Assembly (NCBI RefSeq): GCF_002374315.1
Contig: NZ_NWUX01000001.1
Location: 372,001 to 436,000 of the forward strand
Source: Vreelandella nigrificans
GTDB lineage: Bacteria; Pseudomonadota; Gammaproteobacteria; Pseudomonadales; Halomonadaceae
Direction of reading: 5' to 3'
Length of the DNA: 64,000 nucleotides
Part shown: positions 24,745-50,045 of the stretch, piece after piece
Layout: every line of letters starts with the position of its first letter
Position numbering within the stretch: the stretch's first letter is position 1
Made by a program: the position numbers and the translations under genes
Notes under the pieces: model-generated
What the model saw: only the letters and a program-made list of their open reading frames with translations
Databases searched by the model: none
Told to the model about the DNA's origin: nothing

Positions 24745-24821
24745 CGGAGTGTGGCGCAGCTTGGTAGCGCGTTGCAATGGGGTTGCAAAGGTCGCAGGTT
24801 CGAATCCTGTCACTCCGACCA
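24745..24821 (+). tRNA. tRNA-Pro (anticodon GGG)
   Basis: 77 nt with encoded CCA. Acceptor CGGAGTG pairs with CACTCCG, the anticodon stem TTGCA/TGCAA encloses loop ATGGGGT giving anticodon GGG, and the T-loop TTCGAAT is intact. Confidence 0.97.
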
Positions 24822-48836: not shown

Positions 48837-48866
48837 TTGACTTTAAAATCAGAAGTAGTAATATAT
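48837..48866 (+). promoter_or_regulatory. Promoter of the tRNA Pro-Arg-His operon
   Basis: TTGACT (48837-48842) and, after 17 to 18 bases, an AATATA/ATATAT element (48860-48866), followed by a GC-rich stretch before the first tRNA. The GC-rich start region is the discriminator type found at stringently controlled stable-RNA promoters. Confidence 0.65.
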
Positions 48867-48911: not shown

Positions 48912-48988
48912 CGGGATGTAGCGCAGTCTGGTAGCGCGCCTGCTTTGGGAGCAGGATGTCGGGGGTTCGAATCCCTCCATCCCGACCA
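48912..48988 (+). tRNA. tRNA-Pro (anticodon TGG)
   Basis: 77 nt with encoded CCA. Acceptor CGGGATG pairs with CATCCCG; anticodon stem CCTGC/GCAGG encloses TTTGGGA, anticodon TGG. First gene of the operon. Confidence 0.97.
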
Positions 48989-49080: not shown

Positions 49081-49157
49081 GCGCCCATAGCTCAACCGGA
49101 TAGAGCAACGGCCTTCTAAGCCGTAGGTTGCGGGTTCGAGTCCTGCTGGGCGTGCCA
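49081..49157 (+). tRNA. tRNA-Arg (anticodon TCT)
   Basis: 77 nt with encoded CCA. Acceptor GCGCCCA pairs with TGGGCGT (terminal G-U); anticodon loop CTTCTAA in the stem ACGGC/GCCGT gives anticodon TCT. Confidence 0.96.
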
Positions 49158-49248
49158 TTAATAGTCTTGGAAGAGCTATTCAAAGCCAAGTTTATTGTGG
49201 TGTTCTTTAGCAGTAATCAAGAAGTAAATATCTACGTACTTTATCAAT

Positions 49249-49324
49249 GGTGGGTGTAGCTCAGTGGTAGAGCCCCGGATTGTGGCTCCGGTGGTCGTGG
49301 GTTCGATCCCCATCATCCACCCCA
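49249..49324 (+). tRNA. tRNA-His (anticodon GTG), copy 1
   Basis: Acceptor GTGGGTG pairs with CATCCAC, G at -1 faces the C73 discriminator, encoded CCA, anticodon stem CCGGA/TCCGG encloses TTGTGGC, anticodon GTG. Confidence 0.96.
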
Positions 49325-49391
49325 TTGATAGTAAAGTGCTCATAGATAATAGCAGTTAGTATATCCGAAAGTTTTCCCAGTTTTAGGTTGT

Positions 49392-49467
49392 GGTGGGTGT
49401 AGCTCAGTGGTAGAGCCCCGGATTGTGGCTCCGGTGGTCGTGGGTTCGATCCCCATCATCCACCCCA
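49392..49467 (+). tRNA. tRNA-His (anticodon GTG), copy 2
   Basis: Identical to copy 1 in every base, with G-1 and encoded CCA. It starts 143 bp after copy 1, with an identical spacer. Confidence 0.96.
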
Positions 49468-49534
49468 TTGATAGTAAAGTGCTCATAGATAATAGCAGTT
49501 AGTATATCCGAAAGTTTTCCCAGTTTTAGGTTGT

Positions 49535-49610
49535 GGTGGGTGTAGCTCAGTGGTAGAGCCCCGGATTGTGGCTCCGGTGGTCGTGGGTTCGATCCCCATC
49601 ATCCACCCCA
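49535..49610 (+). tRNA. tRNA-His (anticodon GTG), copy 3
   Basis: Identical to copies 1 and 2. It starts 143 bp after copy 2. The sequence downstream of it differs from that after copies 1 and 2. Confidence 0.96.
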
Positions 49611-50045
49611 TTACCTAGCGTTCAGTTGTTAGTACGCTACCGCGCTTTACTTCTATATTATTTTCCCCAGATATCAGCTTTCTATTTTAACTAGCAATAA
49701 GCAATTAAGCCGCTTATGCTGGTTTTTTGCTGTTCTTGTAAAATATTTTTGTGCTTTTTTCTCTCCTTTCTTCTTTTCCTCCCACTCAACCCTGTGTCGC
49801 TTGATATGCCGCAAAGGGGTTCAGCTATCTGTTAAGCCGCAGAATGCAGCCATTTTTTCAGACACTATACTGGGAATAGTTGAGTTGTCCGTTTTTTAAT
49901 AGTTTGCGACAGATATTGCTGTTCTGGTTTTGTAAAATAGTTTTTTCAACTATGTGAAACTGGTTTGTTTAGTGATATTTTTCAATCAGTTAATTTGGTT
50001 TGCTGGTAGCAGCTATTTTTCTAACGTTCGAGGGAGTGCGGCAGA
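49611..50045. other. AT-rich intergenic region before the DadA-like gene
   Basis: 435 bp with no supported gene. It has long T-rich tracts and is lower in GC than its neighbours. It must include the end of the tRNA transcript and the promoter of the oxidoreductase gene. I see no clear terminator hairpin or consensus promoter, and no tRNA or repeat. Confidence 0.45.

Follow-up and report, generated by a model that had tools for sequence, protein, structure and literature searches.

The stretch of DNA analysed here, hereafter the window, comprises 64,000 nucleotides of Vreelandella (formerly Halomonas) nigrificans and derives from a draft genome of 4.93 Mb in 84 contigs. On its forward strand lies a cluster of tRNA genes that begins, according to the tRNA calls, with tRNA-Pro(UGG) (48912..48988) and tRNA-Arg(UCU) (49081..49157) and continues with three tRNA-His genes, called by ARAGORN as tRNA-His(gtg) at 49250-49324, 49393-49467, and 49536-49610. 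Inclusion of the encoded G-1 nucleotide shifts their starts to 49249, 49392, and 49535 and gives a gene length of 76 nt, with copy 1 at 49249..49324, copy 2 at 49392..49467, and copy 3 at 49535..49610. Each gene scores 65.4 bits against RF00005, which passes the cut-off, and has the features of a bacterial tRNA-His, namely the GUG anticodon, G-1 opposite C73, and an encoded CCA end; in the 76-nt form, the predicted fold has an acceptor stem of 8 pairs. A further tRNA-His match was not found elsewhere in the assembly. Upstream of the cluster, a promoter-like site (TTGACT-16-TAATAT, 48837..48864, forward strand) was picked up by a consensus scan with 9/12 matches, a scan that returned three such sites in the region against 1.8 expected. 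Downstream, folding of 49650-49780 (z -2.63) predicts a hairpin followed by a T run at 49689..49724 on the same strand, a terminator-like end to the cluster that the simple scan did not return. These two signals are weakly compatible with a single putative operon. The window also holds a lone tRNA-Pro(GGG) gene at 24745-24821.

The three tRNA-His genes were described in the first-pass annotation as identical and as lying in an exact 143-bp tandem with identical spacers, and the assembled sequence bears this out on every point. In addition to the ARAGORN calls, a self-match at a shift of 143 runs for 222 nt (49248-49469 against 49391-49612), and Tandem Repeats Finder reports a period of 143, 2.6 copies, 100% matches, and a score of 730, far beyond chance; together they delimit an exact array at 49248..49612 on the forward strand. 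Copies 2 and 3 have the same sequence as copy 1, spacer 1 (49325..49391) equals spacer 2 (49468..49534), both on the forward strand, and the first and last tRNA-His genes of the array have 79 nt in common. From this identity it had been concluded that the copies are either recent or homogenised by recombination. Identity is indeed compatible with both, and it is equally compatible with a third option, a product of assembly; general homogenisation, moreover, is not the rule in the genus.

To place the array in its lineage, tRNA-His loci were compared across the genus. A match was found in 79/82 Vreelandella genomes, the three without one (G051, G052, and G072) being 66-88% complete. A clean tandem pair of tRNA-His genes behind Pro(UGG)-Arg(UCU) is present in 73 of these 79 (72 of the 77 genomes in the main array reading, plus G054, which was read separately). 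The other six are G053 and G056, with one tRNA-His gene each, three genomes with a break or gap in the array, and the genome of the window with its three. The broken or gapped genomes had also yielded three matches and were rejected as triples, G016 and G078 for a contig break inside the array and G027 for an N run in the first gene. Among the other 78 genus genomes with a match, these three included, no tRNA-His triple, recent or old, was found, and all 27 of 27 genus assemblies with at most five contigs (a number that the genome tables give in rounded form) have two genes and no triple. Furthermore, tRNA-Leu is absent from the cluster at all 79 genus loci. The view that tRNA-His is usually a single-copy gene is therefore wrong for this lineage, and the lack of tRNA-Leu, correctly observed in the first pass, is the lineage norm; since both the tandem pair and the missing tRNA-Leu are found throughout, neither is an oddity of this strain.

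The two genes of such pairs are often, but not always, alike. They are identical at 45/73 two-gene loci and differ at 28/73, one of the latter only through truncation of the second gene at a contig end; this set of loci deviates slightly from the 73 clean-pair genomes in that it includes a locus of G016 (C24) and omits G054. At about 20 genus loci (e.g., L033, L039, and L042), the two tRNA-His genes are set apart by the same two changes, 17 of them by exactly these two and three with one further change or N added. Judged from these sequences, a subgroup of the genus maintains two distinct tRNA-His genes rather than identical ones.

Beyond the genus, all eight named Halomonadaceae loci (from Vreelandella, Billgrantia, Halomonas, Franzmannia, and Salinicola, two of them also in the genus survey) match the window in gene order, Pro-Arg-His-His, and in having folD as a neighbour, and they differ from it in carrying two tRNA-His genes where its assembly has three. 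The order Pro(UGG)-Arg(UCU)-His without tRNA-Leu thus identifies the window cluster as an ordinary Halomonadaceae tRNA cluster with the tandem tRNA-His pair typical of the family. Only the third copy is unusual, and that copy is unproven. The cluster takes the form Arg-His-Leu(UAG) or Arg-His-Leu-His, Pro being present or absent, in Pseudomonas, Marinobacter, Nitrincola, and further taxa, and two tRNA-His genes occur in 20/80 named loci of mixed genera. In the Pseudomonas form, argTCT-hisGTG-leuTAG-hisGTG, the Arg-His core is placed alike relative to folD, whereas tRNA-Leu(UAG) stands between the His genes; a passage of a study of P. fluorescens names this cluster for strain SBW25 (PMC7661048). 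Searches of the open-access literature listed no publication on how many tRNA-His genes Halomonas or Vreelandella carry.

In Marinobacterium rhizophilum DSM 18822 (L142), the order Arg-His-Leu-His-His-His includes three adjacent identical tRNA-His genes, like the window, but their spacers differ in length (start-to-start distances of 195 and 205) and in sequence, and there is no exact-unit repeat. Two genomes of another genus of the family, G238 (L213) and G243 (L214), have three genuine tRNA-His genes, behind each of which lies other DNA, with tRNA-Pro in the spacers read; in the alternating order His-Pro-His-Pro-His, a unit of two genes recurs while its spacers have diverged. Other candidates were rejected, G085 and G089 from other genera for contig breaks, and G138, G141, G188, G247, G252, and G274 for a short or weak third match. 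Across the class, a pattern of three close tRNA-His genes matched 1/369 genomes, that of the window itself, although the pattern spans only start-to-start distances of 115-145 with an exact anticodon arm and says little on other triples. The comparison with related genomes shows the third copy to be unusual and the pair to be normal.

Among 77 comparable genus loci, the closest relative over the stretch from Pro to His is G050, with 95.4% identity (gaps counted), followed by G056 with 86.4%. In G050, a single-contig assembly, this cluster holds two tRNA-His genes 143 bp apart, and adding one exact unit to the G050 array gives that of the window. Aligned locally, the two regions show 1972 identities and 108 mismatches, along with 152 gap positions that mostly belong to the extra unit. 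The window spacer aligned with that of G050 shows 64 identities, 2 mismatches, and 4 gap positions. Since the window spacers are alike but unlike that of G050, the third unit, if real, would be recent and would have been added after the split from G050. The draft of G056 (L086) has a single tRNA-His gene, through either real deletion or assembly collapse. An exactly copied unit that is absent from a close relative is what a recent tandem duplication leaves behind; an over-counted loop in the assembly would also give an exact extra unit missing from a close relative.

A second array of this assembly likewise has one unit more than its counterpart in G050. Three identical tRNA-Arg(ACG) genes follow tRNA-Ser(GCU) in an exact 160-bp tandem with identical spacers (G000 contig C22, 292995-293391, locus L259), whereas G050 has two such genes at 160 bp with a 79-nt repeat. 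A comparison with G050 covered seven unbroken arrays of tandem tRNA genes (His, Arg, Lys, Asn, Val-GAC, Asp, and Leu-CAG). The two with an underlying repeat of 79 nt, His and Arg, are each one unit longer in the assembly. No gain is seen in the other five (Lys, Asn, Val, Asp, and Leu), whose longest repeats measure 61-78 nt, and Asp has one gene fewer than G050. The chance that two extra units fall on precisely His and Arg among seven arrays is 1 in 21, calculated by hand. Among the genus matches listed, the only other exact tRNA-Arg triple is that of G002, an assembly whose contig ends overlap by 55-57 nt, compared with 80 nt for its Arg repeat. Two other arrays of the window's genome show irregularities of their own: the Glu-Gly array is interrupted by the ends of contigs C2 and C23 (L244 and L246), and contig C6 (L254) reads Val-Asp-Asp where G050 (L337) reads Val-Asp-Asp-Val-Asp, through either collapse or real loss.

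The ends of the contigs offer information on how the genome was put together. When contig ends overlap by a fixed length, this typically reflects a de Bruijn assembler and the k at which it was run. A total of 40 ends, from 20 of the 84 contigs, were compared, and 29 end pairs had at least 15 terminal nucleotides in common; the shared length was exactly 77 nt in 20 pairs, 78 nt in three, 79 nt in two, 124 nt in two, 191 nt in one, and 17 nt in one. These ends point to a short-read assembly run at k = 77, for which SPAdes is the usual program. In a further draft, G004, 11/20 contig starts are N throughout, and the rest have no common ends. The inferred k can be set against the array itself: a two-gene array with the flanks of the window would contain an exact direct repeat of 79 nt. 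As this exceeds 77, even two genes would form a loop in the assembly graph, and the number of turns through it must be estimated.

Assembly error, raised as a caveat in the first-pass annotation, proves to be the main issue, and we give about an even chance to the reading that the third tRNA-His unit is an assembly over-count and that the cell would have two genes. This cluster would be the standard Pro(UGG)-Arg(UCU)-His-His form, which, we infer, is probably transcribed from a single promoter upstream and then processed to the individual tRNAs. The exact 79-nt direct repeat of the two-gene array would have formed a loop in the graph at k = 77; the assembler would have walked that loop twice instead of once, adding a third, perfectly identical unit, and the cell would then hold two tRNA-His genes, like its relatives. 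Several observations support an over-count: the repeat of the smaller array is longer than the inferred k, G050 has two genes, the same surplus of one unit recurs in Arg, only the 79-nt arrays among the seven compared have a surplus unit, and the low-contig assemblies are free of triples. The tRNA-Arg triple of G002 points the same way, as it lies in an assembly whose end overlaps are shorter than the repeat. One cause for both His and Arg is also simpler than two rare, independent duplications. Against an over-count, 14 other draft tRNA-His arrays with exact repeats of at least 79 nt, including that of G002, were assembled as two genes. The reading is further weakened by the Val(GAC) and Asn arrays, whose 78-nt repeats also exceed 77 and yet are not expanded. 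In addition, a published benchmark reports for SPAdes 3.11, in the table rows considered, two motif copies or none for a true number of two to five (PMC6052550), that is, under-counting, although the assembler or version used here may differ.

The alternative that comes closest, to which we assign a probability somewhat short of even, is a real and very recent third copy, added as an exact 143-bp unit of gene plus spacer by unequal homologous recombination. The recombination would have followed mispairing of sister chromosomes at the 79-nt repeats of the identical genes, and the extra tRNA-His gene would probably be neutral or mildly useful and easily lost by the reverse event. The boundaries of the unit are as expected from recombination between two identical genes, copying after the split from G050 fits the mutually identical spacers, and the single tRNA-His gene of G056 would make the array labile in this clade if the assemblies are right. 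Exact-unit change in tRNA copy number also occurs in complete genomes of Escherichia coli. The tRNA-Arg(ACG) array there, serV-argVYZQ, resembles that of the window in consisting of tandem identical genes whose number varies by whole units, and differs in tRNA and in usually having four genes: tRNA-Arg(ACG) was found at 1-9 places per complete genome, with a median of 4 (5375/5426 genomes matched), and in a listing of 60 genomes at even steps, the number was four in 51, three in five, five in two, six in one, and two in one. E. coli FDAARGOS_1261, a complete genome, carries three identical tRNA-Arg(ACG) genes in an exact 139-bp tandem with identical spacers. The serV-arg array of E. coli IH5 (NZ_CP168949.1, L388), another record labelled complete, ends with a tRNA-Arg gene annotated at 74 nt and continues into a partial pdeC, an arrangement suggestive of a misjoin or rearrangement. 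What counts against a real duplication in the window's genome is that two rare, independent events would be needed, in His and in Arg, both free of mutations and in just the two 79-nt arrays, and that the triple is confined to one matched genus genome. On balance, we lean slightly and tentatively towards an over-count rather than a real and very recent duplication.

Other readings fare less well. A real gain of one exact unit in both the tRNA-His and the tRNA-Arg(ACG) arrays, in a recent burst of recombination and perhaps under selection for translation capacity, seems to us unlikely. Improbable by a further step is a third copy kept by selection for more tRNA-His, owing to histidine codon demand or fast growth; two tRNA species are both expanded in this assembly, and text of the SBW25 study describes laboratory selection for a rise in tRNA dosage by duplication (PMC7661048), but G050 has two of each. 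In SBW25, according to the same text, tRNA gene number rises by large tandem duplications of tens to hundreds of kilobases (PMC7661048), whereas in the window a single gene plus spacer is concerned. A passage of another study reports an excess of structural variants close to tRNA genes during antibiotic stress (PMC8811037). Least probable of all are three old copies held identical by gene conversion, for although genus pairs are often identical, relatives including G050 have two genes, not three, and more than a third of the two-gene loci are non-identical.

If the third copy is real, the array would be one more tandem tRNA array that changes its copy number by whole units, and of modest interest. 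If it is an artefact, it serves as a warning that short-read assemblies may give a tRNA gene number wrong by one wherever the exact repeat of an identical tandem pair is longer than the k-mer; work on codon bias and growth rate draws on such numbers.
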